From positions 1 to 64,000 of the forward strand of contig NZ_JOEE01000008.1 in assembly GCF_000720925.1 (NCBI RefSeq): DNA of 64,000 nucleotides. The letters run 5' to 3'. Both the position numbers and the translations under genes were made by a program. A model generated the notes under the pieces. That model ran no database searches, was not told the DNA's origin, and saw nothing but the letters and a program-made list of their open reading frames with translations. Shown piece after piece: positions 43,590-55,796 of the stretch. Origin of the DNA: Phycicoccus jejuensis (GTDB lineage: Bacteria; Actinomycetota; Actinomycetes; Actinomycetales; Dermatophilaceae). Positions within the stretch are counted from its first letter, which is position 1. The number at the start of each line of letters is the position of its first letter.

Positions 43590-43622
43590 CACGACCGCCT
43601 TTCGGGGTGTCTCGGAAAGGGG

Positions 43623-43662
43623 GAGCCGGGGTGGGGCGGGAACGCCCACCCCACCCCGGCTC
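43623..43662 (-). promoter_or_regulatory. 18-bp intra-operon stem-loop between binding-protein and permease genes
   Basis: GAGCCGGGGTGGGGCGGG (43623-43640) pairs with the inverted copy at 43645-43662 with a single C-A mismatch and a 4-nt loop. It lies 17 bp past the binding-protein stop and 33 bp before the permease start, the classic place for partial termination or 3'-end protection of the binding-protein message. Confidence 0.65.
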
Positions 43663-43679
43663 GTGGACCTGTGGTCAGG

Positions 43680-45053
43680 TCAGGACTTCGGCCAGGACTG
43701 CTCGATGTAGTCCAGCGTGGACGCGTCGTCCTTGCCGGTGATCCAGTCGGTCATGCCCTTCCAGAAGGTGCCCGCACCCACGGCGCCCGGCATGAGGTCG
43801 GAGCCGTCGAAGCGGAAGGTGGCGTTCGCGTCGGTCAGCTGCTCGGCCGACAGCTTGTCGACCGGGTTCTTCAGCAGCGAGGCGTCGGCGTTCTTGTTGG
43901 CGGTGACACAGCCACCGGAGCCGCAGGTCTTGGCCCGCTCGTTGGCCCACTCGACCGAGGAGAGGTAGGTCTGGAAGGCCTTGACCTCGGGACGGTCGGC
44001 GAAGGCGGCGACGAACTCGCCACCACCGAGGACCGGGCGGTCCTCCGCGGTCTTCGACGGCAGGTAGAAGGCCCAGACGTCGCCGTCCTCGGCGACCTTG
44101 GTGCCCTCGGGCCAGTTGGCCGCGTAGAACGAGGCCTGGCGGTGCATGTAGCAGGAGCCGTCGAGGATCGGCTGGCCCGCGTCCTGGAAGGACGTCGAGG
44201 CGATCGTCTTGACGTCACCGAAGCCACCGTTGACGTAGGCCGGGTTCTTGAGGATCTTGCCGACCTCGGCGAGGGCCGTGGCGACCGACGGGTCGTTGAA
44301 GGGGATCTCGTGCTTGACCCACTTGTCGTAGGTCTCCGGGCCCGCCGTGCGGAGCATGACGTCCTCGACCCAGTCCGTCGCCGGCCAGCCGGTGGCGTCG
44401 CCGGACTCGATGCCCGCGCACCACGGCTTGGCGTCCGGGTTGTCCTTGGAGATCTTGTCGGTCAGGGCGAGGAGCTCGTCCCAGGTCTTCGGGATCTGGT
44501 AGCCCTTGTCGGCGAAGGCCGACGGGGAGTACCAGACGAAGGACTTGACGTTGGCGCCGAGGGCGGCGGCGTAGAACGTGCCGTCGACGGTGCCGTACTC
44601 CTTGAAGTCGGGCATGTTCTTGTCGACGTTGGCGACGACCTCGGCCGGGGCCGGCTTGACGGCGCCGGTGGCGACCATCGTCTTGAGCAGACCGGGCTGC
44701 GGCAGGTACGCGATGTCGGGGGCGTTGCCACCCTTGACGCGGACCGGGAGCTGGGCTTCGAACTCCTTGGAGCCTTCGTACTTGATGGTGACGCCGGTGC
44801 ACTCCTCGAACGGCTTGTAGGAGGCGATGTGCGGCCCATCCTCGGGCGCGGTGATCGAGGTGTAGACGGTGACCGTCTTGCCCTTGAGGTCGCCGAACGC
44901 CGTGTAGGGCGCGCAGTCGATGCTGCTGGTGCCACCGCTGCTCGCGGTGTCGCCGGAACCACCGTCGCTGCCGGAGCCGCAGGCCGTGGCGCTGAGGGCC
45001 ACCGCCAGGACTCCGGAGAACGCCAGGGCGCGGCGCGTCGAGATGAGGGCCAT
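43680..45053 (-). CDS. Sugar-binding lipoprotein of ABC transporter (AglE-like)
   Basis: A 457-residue extracytoplasmic solute-binding protein. The signal peptide ends in the lipobox LSATACGSGSDGG, so it is anchored to the outer membrane face by Cys. The mature part has a type-I binding-protein pattern (GKTVTVYTSITAPEDGPHIA, GVTIKYEGSKEFEAQLPVRV, GNAPDIAYLPQPGLL), resembling alpha-glucoside-binding AglE proteins; the sugar itself is inferred, not shown. ATG 45053 has GGAGGCGG about 5 nt upstream. It is the first gene of the minus-strand operon and is preceded by a promoter with an embedded LacI-type operator. Confidence 0.88.
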   Translation of the reverse strand: MALISTRRALAFSGVLAVALSATACGSGSDGGSGDTASSGGTSSIDCAPYTAFGDLKGKTVTVYTSITAPEDGPHIASYKPFEECTGVTIKYEGSKEFEAQLPVRVKGGNAPDIAYLPQPGLLKTMVATGAVKPAPAEVVANVDKNMPDFKEYGTVDGTFYAAALGANVKSFVWYSPSAFADKGYQIPKTWDELLALTDKISKDNPDAKPWCAGIESGDATGWPATDWVEDVMLRTAGPETYDKWVKHEIPFNDPSVATALAEVGKILKNPAYVNGGFGDVKTIASTSFQDAGQPILDGSCYMHRQASFYAANWPEGTKVAEDGDVWAFYLPSKTAEDRPVLGGGEFVAAFADRPEVKAFQTYLSSVEWANERAKTCGSGGCVTANKNADASLLKNPVDKLSAEQLTDANATFRFDGSDLMPGAVGAGTFWKGMTDWITGKDDASTLDYIEQSWPKS

Positions 45054-45149: not shown

Positions 45150-45239
45150 CGCCCTGTCGAGCGTGTGCGGTAACGATTACGTAACACGGCCGTCGCCCGG
45201 GTGGCCATCCGGCCGCCCCCGCGGTCCCACCAGCCCCTG

Positions 45240-45300
45240 CATTTCGGGGTCACCCCGAAATGTCCACGGGACAAGGGAACCGAGCCGGGGTCCCGCGGAC
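45240..45300 (+). repeat. Two-hairpin repeat element, copy 1
   Basis: Hairpin 1: CATTTCGGGG (45240-45249), loop TCA, CCCCGAAATG (45253-45262). Hairpin 2: GTCCACGGGAC (45262-45272), 17-nt loop, GTCCCGCGGAC (45290-45300) with one A-C mismatch (G-U on the other strand). It lies 38-98 bp beyond the parC stop (minus strand) and may terminate parC. Copy 2 at 55421-55481 has the same lengths throughout. Confidence 0.8.
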
Positions 45301-45337
45301 GAAGCCTTGTGTCGGGCCGGCGCGGGGCCCGGATGCC

Positions 45338-47782
45338 TCAGCGGACGGGTGCGCCGATGCCCGCGACGACCGTCGGGTGCGGCGCGCCGGAGCCGTCGCG
45401 CTTCCCGCTCGCGGCGGGCAGCTCGAGCGCGACGCCGCCGGCACCCGACGCGCGGGCCGGCAGCGCGCCGACCCAGGCGAGCACGAGCGTGTCCTCGCCG
45501 CGCAGGAACCGGTGCGCGCGCACGCCGCCGGTCGCCCGACCCTTGGCCGGGTACTCGGTGTACGGCGCGACCTTGAGCGAGCCCGGCTGGGTGCCCGGCA
45601 GCGCGTCCGAGGAGCCGGACGAGGTGACGACGACGTTCTCGGCGGCCGGGTCGACCGCGCCGAAGAAGACCGCGGACGCCTTGGGGGAGAGGCGGATCCC
45701 TGCCATGCCTCCGGCGGCGCGACCCTGCGGCCGGACGGACGAGGCGGGGAAGCGCAGCAGCTGCGCGTCGCTCGAGACGAACACGAGGTCCTCGGCGCCG
45801 TCGCGCAGCTCGACCGCGCCGACGACCGCGTCGCCGTCCTTGAGGGAGACGACCTCCCAGTCGGGGCTCTTCGGGTACTCGGGCACGACGCGCTTGACGA
45901 CGCCCTGCGCCGTGCCGAGCGCGAGGCCCGGGCCGTCGGGGTCGAGCGAGACGATGGTCAGCGGCTCCTCGCCGCGCGGCAGGTCGACGTACACGGCGAG
46001 CGGCGCACCCCCGGAGAGGCTGGGGGAGCCGCCGAGCGGCGGCAGCGCCGGCAGCTCGAGCGCGGACATCCGCACCATCCGGCCACGGGAGGTGACGAGT
46101 GCGAACTCGCCTCTCGCGGTGGTGCGCACGGCCCCGATGATCGCGTCGTGCTTGGCGCGCGGACCGTCCGCCGGGATCGGCTCGGCGGAGGAGGTGCGGG
46201 CGAGCAGGCCGGTGGAGGAGAGGAGGACCCAGCACGGGTCGTCGCTCACCTCGAGCGGCGTGGTCTGCGTGAGCGGCGTGCCGGCCGACTCCAAGAGCAC
46301 GGTGCGGCGGGGTGTGCCGTGGGCCTTGGCGACGTCGGCGAGCTCGCCGGAGACGGTGCGGCGCAACAGCTTCTCGTCGGCGAGGATGGCCTCGAGCTCC
46401 TCGATGAGGCGCTTGAGCTCGTCGCGCTCGGCCTCGAGCTCGATGCGCGAGAACTTCGTGAGCCGGCGCAGCTGGAGCTCGAGGATGTACTCGGCCTGCA
46501 CCTCGGAGAGGTCGAAGACGTCGATGAGGCGGGTGCGCGCGGCGGCGGCGTCGTCGCTGCCGCGGATCAGCTGGATGACCTCGTCGATGTCGAGGATCGC
46601 CACGAGCAGGCCCTCGACGAGGTGGAGCCGGTCCTTGCGCTTGCCGAGCCGGAACTCGGTGCGCCGGCGCACGACGTCGGTGCGGAACTGCACGTAGACG
46701 CGCAGCAGCTCCTTGAGCCCGAGGGTCTGCGGCTGGCCGTCGACGAGCGCGACGTTGTTGATGCCGAAGGAGTCCTCCATCGGCGTGTGCTTGTAGAGCT
46801 GCTCGAGGACGGCCTCGGGGTTGAAGCCGTTCTTGACCTCGAAGACCAGCCTCAGGCCGTTCTTGCGGTCGGTGAGGTCCTTGACGTCGGAGATGCCCTG
46901 GAGCTTCTTGGCCTGGACGAGGACCTTGACCCGCTCGATGACCTTCTCGGGGCCGACGAGGTAGGGCAGCTCGGTGACGACGATGCCCATCCGGCGGGGG
47001 GTGAGCTTCTCGACGCGGGCGGTGGCGCGAGTGAGGAACTTGCCGCGGCCGGTGAGGTAGGCGTCGCGGATGCCGTCGAGGCCGACGATCCGGCCGCCGC
47101 CGGGCAGGTCGGGGCCGGGGACGAACTTCATGAGGTCGTCGAGCGAGCAGTCGGGGTGGTCCAGGAGGTGGCGCGCGGCGCCGATGACCTCGACGAGGTT
47201 GTGCGGCGCCATGTTCGTCGCCATGCCGACGGCGATGCCGCTGGTGCCGTTGACGAGGAGGTTCGGGTAGGCCGCGGGCAGGACGCCGGGCTGCTCGAGG
47301 GAGTCGTCGTAGTTGGGGACGAAGTCGACGGTCTGCTCGTCGAGGCCGGTGACCATGAGCCGCGCGGCGGGGGCCATCCGGGCCTCGGTGTACCGGGAGG
47401 CGGCCGGGCCGTCGTCGAGGGAGCCGAAGTTGCCGTGGCCGTCGACGAGCGGCAGCCGCATCGTCCACGGCTGGGCCTGGCGCACGAGGGCGTCGTAGAT
47501 CGCCTGGTCGCCGTGGGGGTGGTACTTGCCCATGACCTCGCCGACGACACGGGAGGACTTGACGTGCGGGCGCTCCGGGCGCAGGCCGAGCTCGGACATC
47601 CCGTAGAGGATGCGCCGCTGGACCGGCTTGAGCCCGTCGCGGGCGTCGGGCAGCGCGCGGGAGTAGATGACGCTGTAGGAGTACTCGAGGAACGCGGTGC
47701 GCATCTCCTCCTCGACGTCGATGTCGACGACGGTGCCGAGGGAGTCCTCGGGGGGAGGCGGGGGAGTCGTGCGCTTGGCCAT
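45338..47782 (-). CDS. parC: DNA topoisomerase IV subunit A (GyrA/ParC family)
   Basis: An 814-residue type IIA topoisomerase breakage-reunion subunit. The winged-helix region has ALPDARDGLKPVQRRILYGM and the quinolone-determining segment KSSRVVGEVMGKYHPHGDQA; the catalytic tyrosine is Tyr131 in AASRYTEARM. A coiled-coil domain (about 370-480, ELQLRRLTKFSRIELEAERD) and a C-terminal beta-pinwheel follow. The pinwheel lacks an obvious GyrA box (QRRGGxG), which favours topo IV over gyrase. It decatenates DNA with ParE. ATG 47782 is the start. The two-hairpin repeat lies beyond its stop. Confidence 0.88.
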   Translation of the reverse strand: MAKRTTPPPPPEDSLGTVVDIDVEEEMRTAFLEYSYSVIYSRALPDARDGLKPVQRRILYGMSELGLRPERPHVKSSRVVGEVMGKYHPHGDQAIYDALVRQAQPWTMRLPLVDGHGNFGSLDDGPAASRYTEARMAPAARLMVTGLDEQTVDFVPNYDDSLEQPGVLPAAYPNLLVNGTSGIAVGMATNMAPHNLVEVIGAARHLLDHPDCSLDDLMKFVPGPDLPGGGRIVGLDGIRDAYLTGRGKFLTRATARVEKLTPRRMGIVVTELPYLVGPEKVIERVKVLVQAKKLQGISDVKDLTDRKNGLRLVFEVKNGFNPEAVLEQLYKHTPMEDSFGINNVALVDGQPQTLGLKELLRVYVQFRTDVVRRRTEFRLGKRKDRLHLVEGLLVAILDIDEVIQLIRGSDDAAAARTRLIDVFDLSEVQAEYILELQLRRLTKFSRIELEAERDELKRLIEELEAILADEKLLRRTVSGELADVAKAHGTPRRTVLLESAGTPLTQTTPLEVSDDPCWVLLSSTGLLARTSSAEPIPADGPRAKHDAIIGAVRTTARGEFALVTSRGRMVRMSALELPALPPLGGSPSLSGGAPLAVYVDLPRGEEPLTIVSLDPDGPGLALGTAQGVVKRVVPEYPKSPDWEVVSLKDGDAVVGAVELRDGAEDLVFVSSDAQLLRFPASSVRPQGRAAGGMAGIRLSPKASAVFFGAVDPAAENVVVTSSGSSDALPGTQPGSLKVAPYTEYPAKGRATGGVRAHRFLRGEDTLVLAWVGALPARASGAGGVALELPAASGKRDGSGAPHPTVVAGIGAPVR

Positions 47783-47875
47783 GGGGTGGCGGCCGTCCTC
47801 GTGCTCGTGCGGTGCGCCGGGGTCAGGACCCGGCAGGGGGCGACCCCATCCTCACAAACGCCCCCGGCGGGGTCG

Positions 47876-48481
47876 TCACGACACTCCGAACCGGCCCCGG
47901 TGCAGCACCTCGTCGACCCCGCGGCGGCGGCGCGTGCGGGCCGACCCGGACACCCGCTCGGCCTCGTGGCCCAGGGCGACGACCCCGACGAGCCGGCGCC
48001 CGGCGGGCACGTCGAAGGCCGCCAGGACCTCGTCGTGGCGCTCGGCGGGCACGCCGAAGAACAGCGCCCCGAGCCCGCGGTCGACCGCGCCGAGCAGCAC
48101 GAGCATCACCGCCATCGCCGTGTCGGTGTCCCAGTAGGGGACGGGCCAGCGAGCCGGGTCGCGGTCGGTCCACCCCTTGTCGGGCTCGGCGTAGCGGTCG
48201 AGGTAGGCGTCGGGATCGGACAGGCACAGCAGCAGGACCGGCGCGGCCGAGACGCCTCTCAGCCAGGCGTCGGGCGCGCCCGGGCCGGACGCCGCGGCCC
48301 AGTAGCGCTCGCGGTCGGCCGCGTCGGTCAGCGCGACGAAGTCCCATCCCTGGCTGAAGCCCGCGCTCGGCGCCCGGACGGCGAGCGCCACGAGGTCGCG
48401 GACCACCGCCTCCGGCACCGGCGCGTCGGGGTCGAACCGTCGGACCATGCGCCGCCGTCGGACGGCCTCGTCGAGCTCCAC
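47876..48481 (-). CDS. Nitroreductase-family flavoprotein
   Basis: A 201-residue FMN-dependent nitroreductase-like protein. Typical motifs: RRMVRRFDPDAPVPEAVV at the N-terminus, RAPSAGFSQGWDFVAL for FMN binding, the helix TAMAVMLVLLGAVDRGLGAL, and GRRLVGVVALGHEA near the end. The substrate could be a nitro compound, flavin or enone. GTG 48481 has CACACT ending 6 nt upstream, a possible leaderless promoter. It is divergent from the acetyltransferase/acyl-CoA synthetase gene, with a 53-bp shared promoter region. Confidence 0.85.
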   Translation of the reverse strand: MELDEAVRRRRMVRRFDPDAPVPEAVVRDLVALAVRAPSAGFSQGWDFVALTDAADRERYWAAASGPGAPDAWLRGVSAAPVLLLCLSDPDAYLDRYAEPDKGWTDRDPARWPVPYWDTDTAMAVMLVLLGAVDRGLGALFFGVPAERHDEVLAAFDVPAGRRLVGVVALGHEAERVSGSARTRRRRGVDEVLHRGRFGVS

Positions 48482-48534
48482 CCGGACAGTGTGCCCGTCA
48501 CGCGCGGGCCGTCCGCGGGTGGCAGGATGGAGGC

Positions 48535-51198
48535 ATGGCGGAGGCGACGCTCCCCCCGGGCTACCCCATCGCGTGGGAGGCCGACGTGGTGCTCCGCGAC
48601 GGCACGGTGGCCAGCGTCCGGCCGATCCGCCCCGCCGACGGCGACGCCCTGCGGCGGTTCCACAACGCGCAGTCCGACGAGTCGATCTACCTGCGCTTCT
48701 TCGCGCCGCTGCGCCGCCTCTCGGACGCCGACGTCCACCGCTTCACGCACGTCGACTACACCGACCGCGTCGCGCTCGTCGTGACGATGCGCGAGGAGAT
48801 CATCGGCGTCGGGCGCTTCGACCGGCTCGACGCCCGCAGCGCCGAGGTCGCGTTCAACATCAGCGACCACTACCAGGGCAAGGGCATCGGGTCGGTGCTG
48901 CTCGAGCACCTCGCGGCCATCGCCCGCGACGTCGGCATCGCCCGGTTCACCGCCGAGGTGCTGCCGCAGAACCGCAAGATGCTCGCCGTCTTCTCCGACG
49001 CCGGCTACGAGGTGGCGCGTCGGGTCGAGGACGGCGTCGTCGAGGTCGGCTTCGACATCGAGCCCACCGACCGCTCGCGCGCCGTCGAGATGAGCCGCGA
49101 GCACCGGGCGGAGGCGCAGAGCCTGCACTCGGTGCTCACCCCGGACACCATCGCCGTCGTCGGCGCGAGCCGGCGCACCGACACCTTCGGCGGGCAGCTG
49201 CTCGACCGTCTCCTGGAGTCGGGGTTCGCCGGGCGCGTCGTGCCGGTCAACCCGAGCTCGAAGAAGGTGCGCCGGCTGACCTGCTACCCGACCGTGCGCG
49301 ACGTGCCCGGGACGGTCGACCTCGCCATCGTCGCGGTGCCCGCCGAGGCGGTGCTCGACGTCGTCGACGACTGCGCGGAGGTGGGCGTCAAGGCGCTGCT
49401 CGTCGTGTCCGCGGGCTTCGCCGAGGACGGCCCCGAGGGGGCCGCGCGGCAGGCCGAGCTCGTGCGGCGCGCCCGCGGCGCCGGGATGCGCGTCATCGGC
49501 CCGAACTCCTTCGGCATCATCAACAACGACCCCGAGGTCCGGCTCAACGCCACCCTCGCGCCGACGCTGCCGCCACCGGGTCGGCTGGGGCTCTTCGCGC
49601 AGTCGGGGGCGCTCGGGATCGCCGTGCTCGCGTCGGCCGCCCGGCGCAACCTCGGCATCTCGACCTTCGGCTCGGCCGGCAACCGGGCCGACGTGTCCGG
49701 CAACGACTTCATGCAGTACTGGATCGACGACGCGTCCACCGACGCGGTCGGCCTGTACCTGGAGTCGATGGGCAACCCGCGCAAGTTCTCGCGGATCGCG
49801 CGCAAGCTCGCGCTCATCAAGCCGGTCATCGTCGTCAAGTCCGGCGTCTCACGCTTCGGGGTGCCGCCGGGGCACGAGGTGCGCGAGACCAAGGCGCGCC
49901 CCGAGGTCTTCCGGGCGATGCTCAACCAGGCCGGCGTCATCCGCGTCGAGAACGTCCACCAGCTCTTCGACGTCGGGCAGCTCGTCGTGCACCAGCCGCT
50001 GCCGGCGGGCGACCGCGTGGCCGTCGTCGGCAACTCCGCCGCCCTCGGGGCGCTGACCGGCGACGCCTGCGCCAGCTGGGGGCTGACCGTGGCGCACGGG
50101 CCGGTCAGCCTGCCGAGTGAGGCCTCGGCCGAGGACTTCCACGCCGCCCTGCGCCGCGCCTTCGAGGACCCCGGGGTCGACTCGGTCGTCTCGTGCTTCA
50201 TCCCGCCGCTTGCGACCGGTGACGCCGACGTCGCCGCGGCCGTGCGCGCGGCGGCTGCCGACTCCGACAAGCCGTGCGTCGCCACCTTCCTCGGCCTGCG
50301 CGGCGTCGACGACCGCGGCTCGGTGACGGGCACCGGCGGTGAGGTGCGGGCCATTCCGGTCTACGCGATGCCGGAGGACGCCGTGCGCGCGCTCGCCGCC
50401 GCGACCCGGTACGGGCAGTGGCGGGCCCGCGACCACGGCACCCCGGTCGCGCCGGTCGGCATCAACCGACGCGTCGCGGAGGACGTCGTCGAGACGGTCC
50501 TGTCGGTGCACCCGAACGGCCGACGCCTGACCCACGACGAGGCCACCGCCCTGCTGTCGGCGTACGGGGTCGACCTCTGGGGGCAGCAGGAGGTCGCGAC
50601 CGTCGAGGACGCCGTCGCCGCCGCCGAACGCGTGGGCTACCCGGTCGTCCTCAAGTCCGTCGCCCCGATGGTGCGCCACCAGGGCGGCTCGGGCGGCGTG
50701 CGCGTCGACCTCGACGGCGAGCGCTCGCTGCGCGCCGCCTGGGCCTCGCTCAGCGAGCGGCTCGCCCCGCTCCAGGCCGACCGCTTCGTCGTCCAGCGGA
50801 TGGCCAGCCAGGGCGTCGCGTGCGTCGTCTCCTCCGACGAGGACCCGCTCTTCGGCCCGGTCATCGGCTTCTCGGTGGCCGGCCTGCCGACCGAGCTGCT
50901 CGGCGACGTCGCGTACCGCATCCCGCCGCTCACCGACGTGACCGTCTCCGAGCTCATCTCGTCGGTGAAGGCCGCGCCGGTGCTCCACGGCTACCGCGGG
51001 CAGACCCCCGTCCACCGCGCAGCGCTCGCGGACCTCATCGCCCGCATCTCCGTCCTCGCCGACGACATGCCCGAGATCGCCTCGCTCGTCCTCAACCCGG
51101 TCAACGCCCACCCCGGCGGGGTCGAGGTGCTGGGGGCCGAGATCTCCGTCGCGCCGGCGCCGCGCCGCATCGACCCGGGTCGCCGCTCGCTGACCTGA
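48535..51198 (+). CDS. GNAT acetyltransferase fused to ADP-forming acyl-CoA synthetase (protein lysine acetyltransferase type)
   Basis: An 887-residue fusion. Residues about 20-190 are a GNAT domain with the acetyl-CoA loop DHYQGKGIGSVLLEHLA; about 200-340 a CoA-binding Rossmann domain (IAVVGASRRTDTFGGQLLDR); about 345-640 a succinyl-CoA-synthetase-like region (LGLFAQSGALGIAVLASAA); and about 660-887 an ATP-grasp domain (GYPVVLKSVAPMVRHQGGSG). This architecture belongs to Pat/PatA-type protein acetyltransferases that modify acyl-CoA synthetases; whether the synthetase half is active here is unknown. In the flavodoxin-like region a conserved catalytic His is not obvious to me. ATG 48535 has GGAGG adjacent and CAGGAT 6 nt upstream. 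Confidence 0.87.
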   Translation: MAEATLPPGYPIAWEADVVLRDGTVASVRPIRPADGDALRRFHNAQSDESIYLRFFAPLRRLSDADVHRFTHVDYTDRVALVVTMREEIIGVGRFDRLDARSAEVAFNISDHYQGKGIGSVLLEHLAAIARDVGIARFTAEVLPQNRKMLAVFSDAGYEVARRVEDGVVEVGFDIEPTDRSRAVEMSREHRAEAQSLHSVLTPDTIAVVGASRRTDTFGGQLLDRLLESGFAGRVVPVNPSSKKVRRLTCYPTVRDVPGTVDLAIVAVPAEAVLDVVDDCAEVGVKALLVVSAGFAEDGPEGAARQAELVRRARGAGMRVIGPNSFGIINNDPEVRLNATLAPTLPPPGRLGLFAQSGALGIAVLASAARRNLGISTFGSAGNRADVSGNDFMQYWIDDASTDAVGLYLESMGNPRKFSRIARKLALIKPVIVVKSGVSRFGVPPGHEVRETKARPEVFRAMLNQAGVIRVENVHQLFDVGQLVVHQPLPAGDRVAVVGNSAALGALTGDACASWGLTVAHGPVSLPSEASAEDFHAALRRAFEDPGVDSVVSCFIPPLATGDADVAAAVRAAAADSDKPCVATFLGLRGVDDRGSVTGTGGEVRAIPVYAMPEDAVRALAAATRYGQWRARDHGTPVAPVGINRRVAEDVVETVLSVHPNGRRLTHDEATALLSAYGVDLWGQQEVATVEDAVAAAERVGYPVVLKSVAPMVRHQGGSGGVRVDLDGERSLRAAWASLSERLAPLQADRFVVQRMASQGVACVVSSDEDPLFGPVIGFSVAGLPTELLGDVAYRIPPLTDVTVSELISSVKAAPVLHGYRGQTPVHRAALADLIARISVLADDMPEIASLVLNPVNAHPGGVEVLGAEISVAPAPRRIDPGRRSLT

Positions 51199-51204
51199 GG
51201 CGCG

Positions 51205-52827
51205 TCAGCCCGCGCGGGCCTGCGCGACGAGGTCGCGCCAGGTGAGCGTGGCCGTGCTCGTGCTCGACGCGGTGCCCACCGGCGACCCCCAGCGCAGCCG
51301 CCAGTCGGCCCGGTCCCCCTTGGAGTCGAAGACGTTGACGTGGTGCGCACCGTTGGCCGCGGCGTAGGCGACGGCGTCGCGGAGCGCTCGCGACTTCCGC
51401 GCGGGGTCCCGGACGTCCTCGAGGTAGCCGAGCTCGCTGACCGACCAGGGCGTGCCGTGGCGGGCGGCGAAGTCGCGGACGAACGACATGAGGTACTCGG
51501 GGCGCCGCCAGTCGACGCCGTCTGTGTAGCCCGCTGGGCAGCACGCGGTCTGCGTCGCGTGCGGGAGGGCGTACACGTCGGCCGAGACGAGGTCGACGTG
51601 GCCGCCGTCGCGGGCGTCCGTGGGCCACCAGTCGTCCGGGGTGCTGCTCCACATCCCCTTGAACGTGATGTTCATGAGGACGAGGGCGACCATCCGCTGC
51701 CCGCCGTCGGCGGCGTCCTGCTCGTCGACGATCCGCTTGAGGGCGAGCAGGCCGGCGCGGTACTGCGCGGCGTCGAAGAGACCGGCGCCGTAGTTCTCGG
51801 GCTCGTGGTAGACGGTGAGGACGATGTCCTTCGGGGTCGTCGCCACGAACGAGCGGACCTGCTCGACCACGGGGTCGGAGGGTGTCGAGAGCCGCTGGGG
51901 GAGGACCCGGAACGAGTACTCGAACCGCGCCCCCGGATGGGCCCGGTGGGCCGGGGTGTCCTGCCAGCGCGCGTAGCCGAAGCCGGAGTCGAACTCGCGG
52001 TACATGTCGACCGGCCCGACGGCCGCGTCGAACCACGGCCAGCTGCTCGAGGCGGCGCCGAGGAGCAGGCGGTCGGTGGGCGGGCCGTCGCCCGGCCCGC
52101 CGTCGCCCGGCAGCAGCAGCAGGGTCCATGCCAAGGCGGTCGTGGCGGGCGTCGAGGTGGCCGACGCACCGGCCAGCGGCCCGCTCGGCACGTCCGCGCG
52201 GTCGACCAGCAGCGCCGAGAAGCGCCCGCTGCCGGTCCCGATGGCCGTGTCCCGGGTCGTCGCCGAGGCCGGTCCGTCCCACCCCGTCGTCGTCGAGGAC
52301 CGGTCGGCCCAGTACGAGACGGCCGTCTCGCCGCCGCCGGCCTGCACCGAGGGTGCGGGGTGCGAGGGTGACGCCGAGGTCTCGACGGAGCCGACCGCGG
52401 TGACCGTCCCGTCCGCAGCGACGCCGCGCCAGACGCCGAGGGTGAGGACCGCCTTGGCGTAGGTCGTGGTGTCGAACCGCACCCGGGCCCCGGCCTCGCC
52501 GCCCCCCGCCGTGCGCCGGTAGACCGTGGACGTGACGGAGGCGGTGCCGGTCGTCGCGACGGTCGTCCAGCCCGAGAGCCCCGTCGGCCCCGTCCACCGG
52601 ACGCTCGTGGCCCGCGTGAGGACGAGCAGCATCGTGTCGCCGGCCCGGGTGCCCGCGGGGACGACGACCTCCTTGGCGCGCTGGGCCTGCGGCGCCGAGT
52701 GCGACGCGCCGACGAACGTCACGCCGGTGGCGGCCTCCGCCCGCCCGGGGACGAGGAACGAGGCCAGGAGCGCGACGAGCACGCCGAGCACCGCCGGACC
52801 GCGACGAGCACCCTGTCGGAGCCCCAT
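51205..52827 (-). CDS. Secreted glycosidase-like protein (clan GH-A-type barrel with N-terminal beta domain)
   Basis: A 540-residue exported protein. The signal peptide (PAVLGVLVALLASFLVPGRA, then EA-AT) is clear. A beta-sandwich domain of about 190 residues starts at TGVTFVGASHSAPQAQRAKE, of a type common in secreted actinobacterial proteins. The C-terminal part (from about 220) reads as a TIM barrel: IVLTVYHEPENYG holds a candidate acid/base Glu in HEPE, and WSVSELGYLEDV a candidate nucleophile Glu, the usual clan GH-A spacing. The substrate may be a beta-mannan or other polysaccharide; this is inferred. ATG 52827 has GGGAGG 7 nt upstream. Its stop is 6 bp from the converging acyltransferase stop. 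Confidence 0.75.
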   Translation of the reverse strand: MGLRQGARRGPAVLGVLVALLASFLVPGRAEAATGVTFVGASHSAPQAQRAKEVVVPAGTRAGDTMLLVLTRATSVRWTGPTGLSGWTTVATTGTASVTSTVYRRTAGGGEAGARVRFDTTTYAKAVLTLGVWRGVAADGTVTAVGSVETSASPSHPAPSVQAGGGETAVSYWADRSSTTTGWDGPASATTRDTAIGTGSGRFSALLVDRADVPSGPLAGASATSTPATTALAWTLLLLPGDGGPGDGPPTDRLLLGAASSSWPWFDAAVGPVDMYREFDSGFGYARWQDTPAHRAHPGARFEYSFRVLPQRLSTPSDPVVEQVRSFVATTPKDIVLTVYHEPENYGAGLFDAAQYRAGLLALKRIVDEQDAADGGQRMVALVLMNITFKGMWSSTPDDWWPTDARDGGHVDLVSADVYALPHATQTACCPAGYTDGVDWRRPEYLMSFVRDFAARHGTPWSVSELGYLEDVRDPARKSRALRDAVAYAAANGAHHVNVFDSKGDRADWRLRWGSPVGTASSTSTATLTWRDLVAQARAG

Positions 52828-52971
52828 GGTCACACCTCCCACCCCTGGACCCGCCGGCCCGGCCGACGGTGGATGAGAGTGTGCCCGTCGGCGGGGTGCC
52901 TGTCACCCCCCGGACGGACGGGTGGGCCGAGCGGCGTCGCCTGCGCCGCACGTCACGGCACAATGGGCGCC

Positions 52972-53562
52972 ATGACCAGCGCCCACCACGCTCCCGCCCT
53001 CCCGGCGGACCTCATCGCCTCCATCGACCGGGCCGGCTACTTCCCGGCCCTCGTCGCGGACGTCGTCTCCGCGGCCCTCGGGAGCGAGCGCATCGACAAC
53101 CACCTCGTGCACCTCGAGACGACGTTCGACCGCGACGTCGTCCGGCGGCACATCACGGTGCTGGTCCTCACGCCGACCCGGCTGCTCATCGCGCACGCCG
53201 ACGACCACGCCGACGAGCCGCCGGCGCCGCAGGAGGTCGCGACGGCCACGACGGAGTCCATCCCGCTGTCGGCGGTCAAGGGCGTCATGCTCACCCACGT
53301 CGTCGAGAAGCCCGAGTCGTACGTGCCCGGCACGCTCGGCCGCGAGGTGACGCTGACCCTCGGCTGGGGCACCGTGGCCCGCATCGACATGGTGCCGGCC
53401 GCGTGCAGCGACCCCGACTGCGACGCCGACCACGGCTACGAGGGGACCATCACCGGCGACGACATCGCGCTGCGCATCTCGGCCGCGGCCGACGGCGACG
53501 ACAAGCTGCAGCGGGCGCTGGCCTTCGCCCGCGACCTGTCCGGCGCCATCGGGCAGCGCTGA
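52972..53562 (+). CDS. DUF5998-family protein
   Basis: A 196-residue soluble protein of the DUF5998 family, conserved in actinobacteria. It starts LPADLIASIDRAGYFPALVA, has VLVLTPTRLLIAHADDHADE and a late CSDPDCDADHGYEGTITGDD segment with paired Cys and acidic residues that could bind metal. Function unknown. ATG 52972 has CACAAT ending 7 nt upstream. It is followed after 2 bp by the phosphatase-like gene and then tdk, an arrangement seen in other actinomycetes. Confidence 0.82.
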   Translation: MTSAHHAPALPADLIASIDRAGYFPALVADVVSAALGSERIDNHLVHLETTFDRDVVRRHITVLVLTPTRLLIAHADDHADEPPAPQEVATATTESIPLSAVKGVMLTHVVEKPESYVPGTLGREVTLTLGWGTVARIDMVPAACSDPDCDADHGYEGTITGDDIALRISAAADGDDKLQRALAFARDLSGAIGQR

Positions 53563-53564
53563 GC

Positions 53565-54698
53565 GTGCTGCTCCCCGCCGCGCCCGACTACGCCTCCGGC
53601 AGCCTCGCCGACGTCCTCCCGAGCGTGTGCGCGTCGCTCGGCGTGCCGGGAGCGGTCGGCGGGCTGGGGCTGGCCCCGGCGCGGCGGGCCGTCGTCGTCC
53701 TCGTCGACGGGCTCGGGGCGGCGCAGCTCGCGCGGCGGCTCGGGCACGCCCCGTGGTTCCGGTCGCTCGCGGGCTCGACGCGGCGGGTGCCGGCCGGCTT
53801 CCCGTCGACCACCGCGACCTCGATGGGCACGTTCGGCACCGGCGCGACGTCGGGCGCGCACGGGATGCTCGGGTACGAGGTGATGGTGCCGGGGGAGGAC
53901 CGCGTCTTCAACGAGCTGTCGTGGGAGGACGGCCCGGTACCGGAGCGCTGGCAGAGCCTGCCCACGTGGTTCGAGCGGGCCGAGGCCGACGGGGTCGCGG
54001 TGACCCGCATCGGCCCGGCGTTCTTCGACGGCTCGGGCCTCACGCAGGCCGCGCTGCGCGGCGGCCGGTTCCGGGCCGCCGACGCGCTCCCTGCCCGGGT
54101 CGACGCCGCCCTGGCCGCCGTGCGCTCGGCACCCCGCTCGCTCGTCTACCTCTACTGGGGCGAGGTCGACAAGCTCGGCCACGTCCACGGGCCCGAGTCC
54201 TTCGAGTGGACGACCGAGCTCGAGGCCGTCGACCGCGAGCTCTCGCGCCTCGCGGCCCGGCTGCCCGACGACACCTCCCTCACCGTCACCGCGGACCACG
54301 GGATGGTCCTCTGCCCGCAGGAGACCCGCCTCGACGTCGCCCGCGAGCCCGGGATGCTCGACGGCGTGCACCTGCTGGGCGGGGAGCCGCGCGCGACCCA
54401 CGTCTACTGCCGCCCCGGGGCCGCCGTCGACGTCGCCGCCGCGTGGTCGGCGTGGCTGGGGGAGCGCGCGAGCGTCGTCCACCGCGCTGACGCCGTGGCC
54501 GCGGGGTGGTTCGGGACGGTCGACCCGGCGCACCTGCCCCGCATCGGCGACCTCGTCGTCGTCGCGCACGACGACTTCTGCCTCGTCGACTCCGCGCGGA
54601 TGCGCCCGCAGCTGCTCGCGCTCGCGGGGATGCACGGGGCGCTGACCGCCGAGGAGCTCGACGTGCCGGTGGTCCACGCGCCGGCCCGCGTCGCCTAG
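53565..54698 (+). CDS. Alkaline-phosphatase-superfamily phosphodiesterase/nucleotide pyrophosphatase
   Basis: A 377-residue member of the alkaline phosphatase superfamily. The metal/nucleophile region is AVVVLVDGLGAAQL followed by FPSTTATSMGTFGTGATSGA, with Thr as the likely nucleophile. Later metal ligands are in YLYWGEVDKLGHVHGP (Asp, His) and TVTADHGMVLCPQ (Asp-His). It resembles nucleotide pyrophosphatase/phosphodiesterases; the substrate is unknown. GTG 53565 starts 2 bp after DUF5998. There is no signal peptide, so it is probably cytoplasmic. Its stop lies 11 bp before tdk, and the tdk -10 overlaps the stop codon. Confidence 0.85.
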   Translation: MLLPAAPDYASGSLADVLPSVCASLGVPGAVGGLGLAPARRAVVVLVDGLGAAQLARRLGHAPWFRSLAGSTRRVPAGFPSTTATSMGTFGTGATSGAHGMLGYEVMVPGEDRVFNELSWEDGPVPERWQSLPTWFERAEADGVAVTRIGPAFFDGSGLTQAALRGGRFRAADALPARVDAALAAVRSAPRSLVYLYWGEVDKLGHVHGPESFEWTTELEAVDRELSRLAARLPDDTSLTVTADHGMVLCPQETRLDVAREPGMLDGVHLLGGEPRATHVYCRPGAAVDVAAAWSAWLGERASVVHRADAVAAGWFGTVDPAHLPRIGDLVVVAHDDFCLVDSARMRPQLLALAGMHGALTAEELDVPVVHAPARVA

Positions 54699-54701
54699 GG
54701 T
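54696..54701 (+). promoter_or_regulatory. Candidate -10 (TAGGGT) for leaderless tdk
   Basis: TAGGGT ends 8 nt before GTG 54710; its TAG is also the stop codon of the preceding gene. Confidence 0.45.
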
Positions 54702-54709
54702 GTTCGCCC

Positions 54710-55387
54710 GTGGCGGATCTGGTGTTCTTCTCGGGGACGATGGACTGCGGCAAGTCGACGCTTGCCCTGCAGATCGACCACAACCAGCGCGCCCGCGACC
54801 GGCAGGGCATCATCTTCACGAAGCTGGACCGGGCGGGGGAGTCGGTGCTGTCCTCGCGCCTCGGGCTCGAGACGAGCGCCGTCGAGGTCGGTGACGACCT
54901 CGACTTCTGGGACGTCGTCGTCGAGCGGCTGACGGCCGGTGGGCGGGTCGACTACGTCATCTGCGACGAGGCGCAGTTCTACACCCCGCGCCAGGTCGAG
55001 CAGCTGGCCCGGCTCGTCGACGAGCTCGGGATCGCGGTGACGGCGTTCGGCATCACCGCCGACTTCCGGACCGAGCTCTTCCCGGGCTCGCGCCGCTTCA
55101 TCGAGCTCGCGGACCGGGTCGAGGTGCTCCAGGTCGAGGCGCTCTGCTGGTGCGGGCGCCGGGCCACGCACAACGCGCGCATCGTCGACGGCGTCATGGT
55201 CGTCGAGGGCGCGCAGGTCGTCGTCGGCGACACCGCGGCCGCGAGCGAGGGGCTCGTCGAGTACGAGGTGCTGTGCCGCCGCCACCACATGCGCCGGATG
55301 AACAGCCACGCGGCCCGGCAGGCGTCGCCCACCCCCGACACGCTCCCGTTCGACCTCGACGCCTGCCCGGTCCCGCCACCCGCCTGA
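54710..55387 (+). CDS. tdk: Thymidine kinase
   Basis: A 225-residue type II thymidine kinase, phosphorylating thymidine in the salvage pathway. The P-loop is FFSGTMDCGKST; the Mg-binding/Walker B region is VICDEAQFYTPRQVEQLARL, with Glu as the likely catalytic base; the lasso-domain zinc site is CWCGRRATHNAR, with a later CRRHH pair. GTG 54710 matches the family start (MADLVFFSG). The C-terminal 30 residues are extra and Pro-rich. A 419-bp repeat-filled region follows. Confidence 0.9.
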   Translation: MADLVFFSGTMDCGKSTLALQIDHNQRARDRQGIIFTKLDRAGESVLSSRLGLETSAVEVGDDLDFWDVVVERLTAGGRVDYVICDEAQFYTPRQVEQLARLVDELGIAVTAFGITADFRTELFPGSRRFIELADRVEVLQVEALCWCGRRATHNARIVDGVMVVEGAQVVVGDTAAASEGLVEYEVLCRRHHMRRMNSHAARQASPTPDTLPFDLDACPVPPPA

Positions 55388-55420
55388 CCGCGCCGGCCCC
55401 ACCTGCCCCTCGCGCCTCAA

Positions 55421-55481
55421 CATTTCGGGGTCACCCCGAAATGTCCACGAGACACGAGCTCGGAGCCGGGGTCTCGCGGAC
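55421..55481 (+). repeat. Two-hairpin repeat element, copy 2
   Basis: Hairpin 1 CATTTCGGGG (55421-55430), TCA, CCCCGAAATG (55434-55443) is identical to copy 1. Hairpin 2 is GTCCACGAGAC (55443-55453), a 17-nt loop ending GAGCCGGG, and GTCTCGCGGAC (55471-55481). Relative to copy 1 at 45240, one G-C pair in stem 2 is an A-T pair, i.e. a compensated change. It lies 33 bp after the tdk stop. Confidence 0.8.
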
Positions 55482-55564
55482 GAACCGGGGTCTCGCCGTG
55501 CCGGGTAGGTCTCGCAATGCCGAGGTGGACTTGCCGTGTCGGCGTGGTCTCGCGGTGCCGGGGT
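55470..55564 (+). repeat. 19-bp tandem repeat, five units
   Basis: Exact 19-bp period: units start at 55470, 55489, 55508, 55527 and 55546, with a consensus close to GGTCTCGCxGTGCCGgggT. The first unit begins inside the right arm of the hairpin element; a decayed sixth unit may run to about 55583. Confidence 0.75.
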
Positions 55565-55628
55565 GTCATGGCGGGTCGGCGAGGCGAGGCAGGGGCGACA
55601 GAGCGAGGTCAAGTGGTCCAGCTGGGTG

Positions 55629-55796
55629 GAGGTATTCCGTTGATGCTGGAGAGCGGCCGGATACCTCGAACCGTTGGAGCGTCGTTGCATCGAGGTGAAA
55701 CGCGACCGCGAGAGGGTCCGGTTTCACCTCGAACCGCCGGGAGCCGTGCTGGGTCGAGGTGAAACCCGACCGCGAGAGGGTCCTCTTTCACCTCGA
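55629..55796 (+). repeat. Three ~64-bp tandem hairpin units
   Basis: Unit A: GAGGTAT (55629-55635) with ATACCTC (55661-55667). Unit B: TCGAGGTGAAAC (55690-55701) with GTTTCACCTCGA (55721-55732), a perfect 12 bp. Unit C: TCGAGGTGAAA (55754-55764) with TTTCACCTCGA (55786-55796). The loops of B and C share GACCGCGAGAGGGTCC with an inner GACC/GGTC pairing. Each unit is followed by CGAACCG. Unit C ends 11 bp from the sepH stop and could terminate it. Confidence 0.8.

Follow-up and report, generated by a model that had tools for sequence, protein, structure and literature searches.

Repetitive extragenic palindromic (REP) sequences, alone or paired as REP doublets forming hairpins (REPINs), are the closest described counterparts of the repeat reported here. 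According to sections of two reports (PMC3116915, PMC3733652), they are short palindromes outside genes that number in the tens and stand singly or as inverted doublets; a nuclease-type gene, encoding the REP-associated tyrosine transposase (RAYT), is flanked by the same palindromes, enzyme clades go with differing palindromes, and copies are absent from relatives. Part of the second report also describes CGTC-tagged REPs, which are dispersed palindromes without a dedicated transposase (PMC3733652). These likenesses hold for a dispersed two-hairpin element found twice in a 64,000-nucleotide stretch of the Phycicoccus jejuensis genome (contig NZ_JOEE01000008.1, positions 1 to 64,000; the whole stretch is called the window below). 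The window sites are probably non-autonomous copies, each a solo end, within a family of small elements that carry a nuclease gene, with the nuclease spreading the hairpin copies. The observed basis of this reading consists of the anatomy of the copies, their dispersal, their presence or absence among species, the linkage of gene and hairpin, the match of nuclease clade to hairpin type, and the predicted fold of the protein.

Anatomy and distribution of the hairpin family

An earlier, sequence-only reading of the window had placed two copies at 45240-45300 and 55421-55481, and both are present there. Hairpin 1 is identical in the two (CATTTCGGGG-TCA-CCCCGAAATG; 45240-45262 and 55421-55443). 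Hairpin 2, with a 17-nt loop and one A.C mismatch in each case, is GTCCACGGGAC/GTCCCGCGGAC in copy 1 (45262-45300) and GTCCACGAGAC/GTCTCGCGGAC in copy 2 (55443-55481). The G at 45262 and at 55443 is common to both stems of its copy, and because of this shared base the outermost pairs of the two hairpins are mutually exclusive. The unit extends past the limits first drawn, into a third module at 45301-45315 and 55482-55496. The features, all given on the forward strand, are as follows.

45216..45239, + strand: copy 1, C-rich outer flank (left-flank base composition of 46 P. jejuensis copies)
45240..45262, + strand: copy 1, hairpin 1 (sequence; genome-wide pattern)
45262..45300, + strand: copy 1, hairpin 2 (alignment, pair counts)
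45301..45315, + strand: copy 1, third module, GAAGCCTTGTGTCGG variant (alignment)
55397..55420, + strand: copy 2, C-rich outer flank (same composition basis as copy 1)
55421..55443, + strand: copy 2, hairpin 1 (sequence; genome-wide pattern)
55443..55481, + strand: copy 2, hairpin 2 (alignment, pair counts)
55482..55496, + strand: copy 2, third module, GAACCGGGGTCTCGC, repeating the right arm of hairpin 2 (alignment)

The pattern ATTTCGGGGTSACCCCGAAAT, allowing three mismatches, was found at 46 places in the P. jejuensis genome (G000; 3,985,545 bases, 3.99 Mb, in 97 contigs), and the reversed pattern at none. These places bear out the earlier expectation of many copies genome-wide. At the same tolerance, a 21-mer occurred at only two places in the window and in 0 of 100 shuffles, which with the empty reversed-pattern control confirms that the window copies are not due to chance. 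Brought into one orientation, all 46 copies show the order C-rich flank, hairpin 1, hairpin 2 and third module. Their left flanks contain C at 0.59 and G at 0.18, versus 0.43 and 0.37 after 84 element-free stop codons; hairpin 2, an odd palindrome, reaches 18 pairs, and the sequence of its right arm often recurs in the third module (about 14 nt).

A covariance model built from 106 copies, with the best 150 candidates per genome scored, gave the window copies 78 and 89 bits, both being part of its training set. The sole other independent above-noise match in the window was weak (43598-43680, 27 bits, E 1.7e-5); it lies between codirectional genes and is possibly a decayed copy. Rfam gave no match in the window at the gathering score. 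The raw number of model matches (131 in P. jejuensis) was rejected as a copy count, being inflated by both strands and partial matches.

Among the matches listed, pattern-bearing named records came from Phycicoccus flavus, P. avicenniae, Phycicoccus sp. CSK15P-2, Nostocoides sp. Soil756 and an uncultured Tetrasphaera. With one mismatch allowed, hairpin 1 was found in 8 of 12 genomes of the genus and in none of 46 other genomes of the family and order; copy number within the genus ranged from 0 to 55. The hairpin-1 pattern proved unsuitable as a census since it undercounts: G008 has 24 covariance-model matches above 54 bits with an altered hairpin 1, 15 of them carrying TCTCGGG instead of TTTCGGG. 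The model also brought out a sister family (type II, as distinct from type I of the window) with hairpin 1 CGTATCGGGTSACCCGATACG and its own hairpin 2, often with a second hairpin 1 at 62 bp. Counted as sites rather than elements, at one mismatch or fewer, type II hairpin 1 occurs in 7 of 58 genomes: P. jejuensis (39), G008 (42), G002 (33), G004 (24), G011 (12) and, from two other genera, G017 (15) and G027 (17). Searches for the repeat in viral contigs and phages returned nothing, and among plasmids only one match (E 0.9, 42% of the query).

Several arrangements of these repeats were observed besides single copies. In P. jejuensis, a type I copy and a type II doublet occupy less than 0.6 kb with no nuclease gene between them (L016 2615-3157, contig C1), and three type II hairpin 1 copies form a tandem array in 62-bp steps (L329 2930-3071, contig C6). 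Five Tetrasphaera MAG (metagenome-assembled genome) loci (L082, L085, L113, L131, L162) hold inverted doublets of hairpin 1 at 60 bp with a very different spacer containing CCCAGTTCTGCGCACTTTC.. words, a further variant of the family. A Dysgonamonadaceae contig (L098 94-410) has the same 19-bp palindrome in an array with a period of about 42 bp; the A+T-rich sequence around it is unrelated, and the likeness is probably due to convergence.

A nuclease gene enclosed by inward-facing copies

At one empty site of G008, the missing 1071 bp comprise two inward-facing copies and a gene, located between a Rieske gene and an open reading frame (ORF) for a UvrC-like protein. In two other genera, type II pairs chosen by their spacing likewise have such a gene between them. 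At the loci examined, all 8 distinct hairpin pairs spaced by 0.99-1.26 kb enclose a nuclease gene; three pairs at other spacings (542, 684 and 2427 bp) do not. PF04480 had been tried as a proxy for the nuclease and was set aside, its four matches in P. jejuensis not lying beside the type I copies then known; the gene was re-identified once the type II pairs of other genera were found to enclose it.

A protein profile made from seven hairpin-enclosed proteins was searched against 14 genomes. It revealed one hairpin-flanked member each in G001-G006, G008, G009, G011, G017 and G027, and two in P. jejuensis, of which the type II gene is open. Three of the 13 flanked units deviate, with a hairpin that is less well formed on one flank or with hairpins set farther apart (up to 1465 bp). 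G007 and G010 have no nuclease member by this search, and they are also the only genomes of the genus with neither type I nor type II hairpins; the chance of this co-absence is 1 in 66 under the (incorrect) assumption of independence among the 12 genus genomes. The unit ends are inward-facing modules of hairpin 1, hairpin 2 and third module. Outside hairpin 1, their mean identity to dispersed copies is highest within the same genome in G000 (0.84, 0.76) and G001 (0.73, 0.75).

The product of this gene of about 300 codons has an AbiEi-like winged-helix domain followed by a nuclease with a predicted fold like that of Vsr homing endonucleases. AbiEi_4 scored above its cut-off in four of five scanned proteins, and AbiEi models of PADLOC matched as well; for the nuclease part, structure prediction supports assignment to the Vsr fold. 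Residues E197, E201, D232, E243, D245 and K249, among others, are invariant in 75 sequences. A sequence search of the PDB with the nuclease gave no match, and neither did a search of plasmids. At least 495 homologues were detected at E 0.001 among 7994 scored candidates, and databases label such homologues as antitoxin or very-short-patch-repair endonuclease.

A phylogenetic tree placed the type I proteins in one clade (6 rows, 100/99) and the type II proteins of the genus in another (5 rows, 100/99), with G017 and G027 branching nearby in a less certain part of the tree. Members of a third clade (9 rows) are flanked by a ACTTTCCCGCCCCATSCGGGAAAG-like palindrome, which is clear in L349-L352 and less so in others; it also appears in loci fetched for other reasons (L107, L116, L119, L135, L178, L179, L184). 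Flanks were examined for 50 of 87 protein matches (all 43 above 150 bits and 7 of 44 below). Within 400 nt, inverted repeats of at least 15 bp were found at 27 of these loci and of at least 13 bp at 33, compared with 1 and 16, respectively, of 300 random G008 windows; excluding the 13 hairpin 1 loci, 19 of 37 carry an inverted repeat. Four distant nuclease genes (L375, L376, L377, L371) have flanking inverted repeats of 16-25 bp with other sequence, some of them palindromic.

One gene family thus recurs inside hairpin pairs of both types, across separate loci and three genera, with nuclease clade matching hairpin type and no other gene seen inside the 0.99-1.26 kb pairs. These observations make it unlikely that the gene is a passenger, of a defence or toxin-antitoxin-like kind, caught between repeat copies that something else moves. 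What speaks for a passenger is that AbiEi models from defence libraries recognise the N-terminal domain, that type I copies of P. jejuensis persist with a broken type I gene, and that mobility by the nuclease is what we infer rather than observe.

Base pairing and covariation of the hairpins

The single compensatory pair that had first drawn attention, with pairing kept while sequence changes, is part of a strong covariation pattern. In 43 of the 46 P. jejuensis copies (alignment A2; L048, twice, and L056 were left out), 91.0% of cells are paired, and the covariation score is 0.067 versus 0.043 ± 0.004 after shuffling. Alignment A1 combines the 46 P. jejuensis copies with 60 from relatives, hand-picked from 125 for a foldable stem 2 or third module. 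Across these 106 copies from several species, so selected, 90.2% of cells are paired, both-side changes affect 248 cells versus 79.7 ± 11.7, and the score is 0.245 versus 0.088 ± 0.006, reaching at most 0.062 when slid. Of the 18 pairs of hairpin 2, 16 have changed on both sides. Hairpin 1 hardly varies, 5 of its 9 pairs being constant, and it also covaries once G008 is added: in alignment A5 (17 of 24 G008 copies, seven with indels being left out, and 18 of 46 from P. jejuensis), pair 4-20 is T-A in 17 of 35 copies and C-G in 13. Pairwise identity of hairpin 1 is 0.85 in G008 (17 rows), 0.95 in P. jejuensis (43 rows) and 0.93-0.98 in four other genomes; because the hairpin-1 pattern served to select these four, the difference is no more than a hint that hairpin 1 diversifies once the nuclease is lost.

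The sequence-only reading had concluded that the structure is selected, as RNA or as a DNA cruciform, had proposed a covariance-model search, and had named uncompensated stem-2 changes as evidence to the contrary. The search returned further copies in the genome and in relatives, and pairing is indeed kept despite change. However, changes of that contrary kind were found in the 43 P. jejuensis copies: five of the seven inner pairs of hairpin 2 are unpaired in 13, 12, 10, 10 and 10 copies, and its A.C pair in 12. Over the 106 copies, G.T and A.C mismatches are about equally common in the outer 11 pairs (35 and 24) and the inner 7 pairs (21 and 20) of hairpin 2, which suggests that neither strand behaves as a conserved RNA across species. 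Against this, A.C mismatches outnumber G.T in the 43 P. jejuensis copies (34 versus 13), mostly in two column pairs, which fits an RNA from the other strand. Neither the wobble balance across species, nor the uncompensated inner stem, nor the place of the same unit at the ends of nuclease-gene elements supports such selection as the cause of the pairing.

The arms change block-wise, and hairpin centres are inverted in some of the 46 copies (hairpin 1, C in 39 and G in 7; hairpin 2, C in 23 and G in 23). Parts of two reports describe template switching between arms as producing compensatory blocks and loop inversions with no RNA selection needed (PMC8794818; PMC8604942), and the pattern seen here is what this process yields. 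Strong base-pair covariation in dispersed hairpins need not imply a functional RNA.

Genomic placement and site occupancy

Placement was determined with a simple codon-model gene caller in P. jejuensis, G005, the named relatives and G008. The location behind genes noted earlier agrees with this survey: 178 of 179 classified copies are intergenic, with 92 between codirectional, 58 between convergent and 28 between divergent genes. Element-free gaps of at least 60 bases at the same loci number 248, 42 and 148, respectively (convergent versus divergent, Fisher 1e-12). Between codirectional genes, orientation is mixed (51 same, 41 opposite).

In the window, copy 1 lies between codirectional and copy 2 between convergent genes. 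The neighbours had been named parC and tdk, and Pfam gives the corresponding gyrase/topoisomerase IV A subunit and thymidine kinase. On visual inspection, the parC site carries a copy of like orientation in G000, G005 and G006, holds a remnant-like sequence in G011 and looks empty in the remaining eight genomes of the genus; at the tdk site, P. jejuensis alone of the 10 seen has a copy. A 400-kb part of G008 covers four P. jejuensis sites with five copies, and all four are empty. Arms at shared sites are often as similar to other copies of the same species as to the orthologue. Because some sites are shared and others empty, and because arms resemble same-species copies, the sites appear to be old, gained and lost over time, with copies within a species growing alike.

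Two other repeats accompany copy 2. Loose tandem-like repeats of about 19 bp with GGTCTCGC.. words occupy 55482-55580, between copy 2 and the next repeat, which is made up of two units TCGAGGTGAAAC..GTTTCACCTCGA in tandem whose inner part is conserved (55689-55795). The latter is also found 3' of tdk in G008 and G004, and elsewhere in the P. jejuensis genome (L020, L037).

The enrichment between convergent genes, the strong hairpins on both strands and the continued occupation of orthologous places in the same orientation, with flank identities of 72-96%, would all be expected of functional 3'-end structures, such as terminators acting in both directions or protectors of mRNA, retained at places where they serve a purpose. 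We regard this explanation as quite unlikely. No U-run follows either hairpin in the aligned copies (termination without one being possible), orthologous sites are empty in a close relative, no strand preference holds across species, and the gene-carrying units are left unexplained.

Proposed mechanism and its appraisal

Linkage, matched types and matched distribution make spread of the hairpins by the nuclease the simplest reading of these sequence comparisons; DNA binding, cutting and nuclease-driven spread of copies are what we infer for the protein. A full element has a single gene of about 300 codons between two ends in inverted orientation, each made of hairpin 1, hairpin 2 and third module. 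Binding of the palindromic hairpin 1 by the winged helix would account for its near invariance. The nuclease may then nick or cut at hairpin 1 or at a target, and repair would copy the hairpin unit to new places, in trans as well for copies that lack the gene. The preference for copying by cutting and repair is a guess based on the predicted Vsr fold. Copies would persist in intergenic positions, for the most part not near divergent promoters. Hairpin 2 would have to fold while its sequence stays free, being rewritten by template switching and exchange between copies.

A number of findings weigh against this mechanism. Neither insertion nor excision was observed, nor a target duplication, nor binding; the four empty G008 sites lacked an apparent target site duplication and may be old or deletions. 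A dozen or more P. jejuensis sites also hold a copy in relatives, with orientation almost always preserved, in loci that had been fetched for carrying the element, and empty sites can be losses. The type I gene of P. jejuensis is frameshifted, though type I copies are most uniform there, and G008 has about 24 type I copies, yet no type I gene at the site that bears it in other species. Unit ends of G005 and G006 are not clearly closest to the dispersed copies of their own genomes. A type II sister protein in G017 (L365) is flanked by another inverted repeat, and repeats of more distant clades (those of P. jejuensis, G005 and G006) were not seen elsewhere within the sequence examined. The random G008 windows with which the nuclease loci were compared are not matched for intergenic flanks. 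The hand selection of alignment rows favours pairing, and our confidence was lowered slightly for this and for the A.C excess in the P. jejuensis copies.

Sites of a nucleoid-occlusion factor provide the model for another explanation, in which hairpin 1 is bound by a host chromosome-organising protein. A nearly invariant palindrome of 19-21 bp in tens of copies per genome suits such a role, but it is very improbable given a copy number of 0 to 55 in one genus, a sister species with another palindrome, and a hairpin 2 and gene-carrying units that it does not explain. Ordinary REP elements or bacterial interspersed mosaic elements (BIMEs) moved by a RAYT-type Y1 transposase, although likewise short, extragenic, palindromic, dispersed and partly in inverted doublets, are scarcely tenable here, as Y1_Tnp (PF01797) was found in none of 12 genus genomes, P. 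jejuensis included (5 of 14 control genomes were positive), and no GTAG tag adjoins hairpin 1 in the 46 aligned P. jejuensis copies.

Comparison with known systems

The nuclease-gene elements resemble several described systems in part. Unlike the Vsr-type (EDxHD) homing endonucleases such as I-Bth0305I, the nuclease lies outside introns and inteins at the loci read, and it has an AbiEi-like N-terminal domain and structured inverted ends. It shares the N-terminal winged-helix domain with AbiEi antitoxins of type IV toxin-antitoxin systems, but here the domain is fused to a nuclease. The neighbours at the type I place of P. jejuensis are the Rieske protein and, judged by eye, the UvrC-like ORF, with no recognisable toxin gene, no search aimed at AbiEii having been made. 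Like miniature inverted-repeat transposable elements (MITEs), the dispersed copies are short non-coding units sharing the terminal inverted repeats of a gene-carrying unit, with solo copies amounting to one end only; in contrast to MITEs, the ends are multi-hairpin. No target duplication was seen at the four empty sites, which may be old or deletions. The CGTC-tagged REPs have stems of 8-9 bp and loops of 4-5 nt (Table 1 of PMC3733652, a report seen in part), whereas here stems are 9-10 bp with a 3-nt loop, or up to 18 bp; CGTC is seen here, by eye, solely where the other strand is read over the right edge of hairpin 2, within the stem. No paper linking these nucleases to dispersed palindromes was found in the open-access literature.

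The differences from REPIN/RAYT systems lie in the enzyme, an AbiEi-like winged helix joined to a Vsr-fold nuclease rather than a Y1 tyrosine transposase, in the missing GTAG tag at hairpin 1, and in the two hairpins and third module of each end; mobility of the present elements is putative. Because the Y1 enzyme and the tag are absent, the family would work like REP/RAYT by analogy, not as a member. It represents a palindrome family without a Y1 enzyme that is tied to one gene family by position, genome distribution and clade. A broader proposal, which we put forward tentatively and hold to be somewhat less likely than its opposite, is that these elements form a new class of self-spreading DNA in Actinobacteria, in which AbiEi-Vsr nucleases act as engines for the palindromes that flank them, each of several clades having supplied its genomes with tens of non-coding hairpin copies, as a second, independently evolved solution of the REP/RAYT kind. 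If spread of the hairpins by the nuclease holds true, AbiEi-Vsr proteins gain a role, and the repeats gain an engine.

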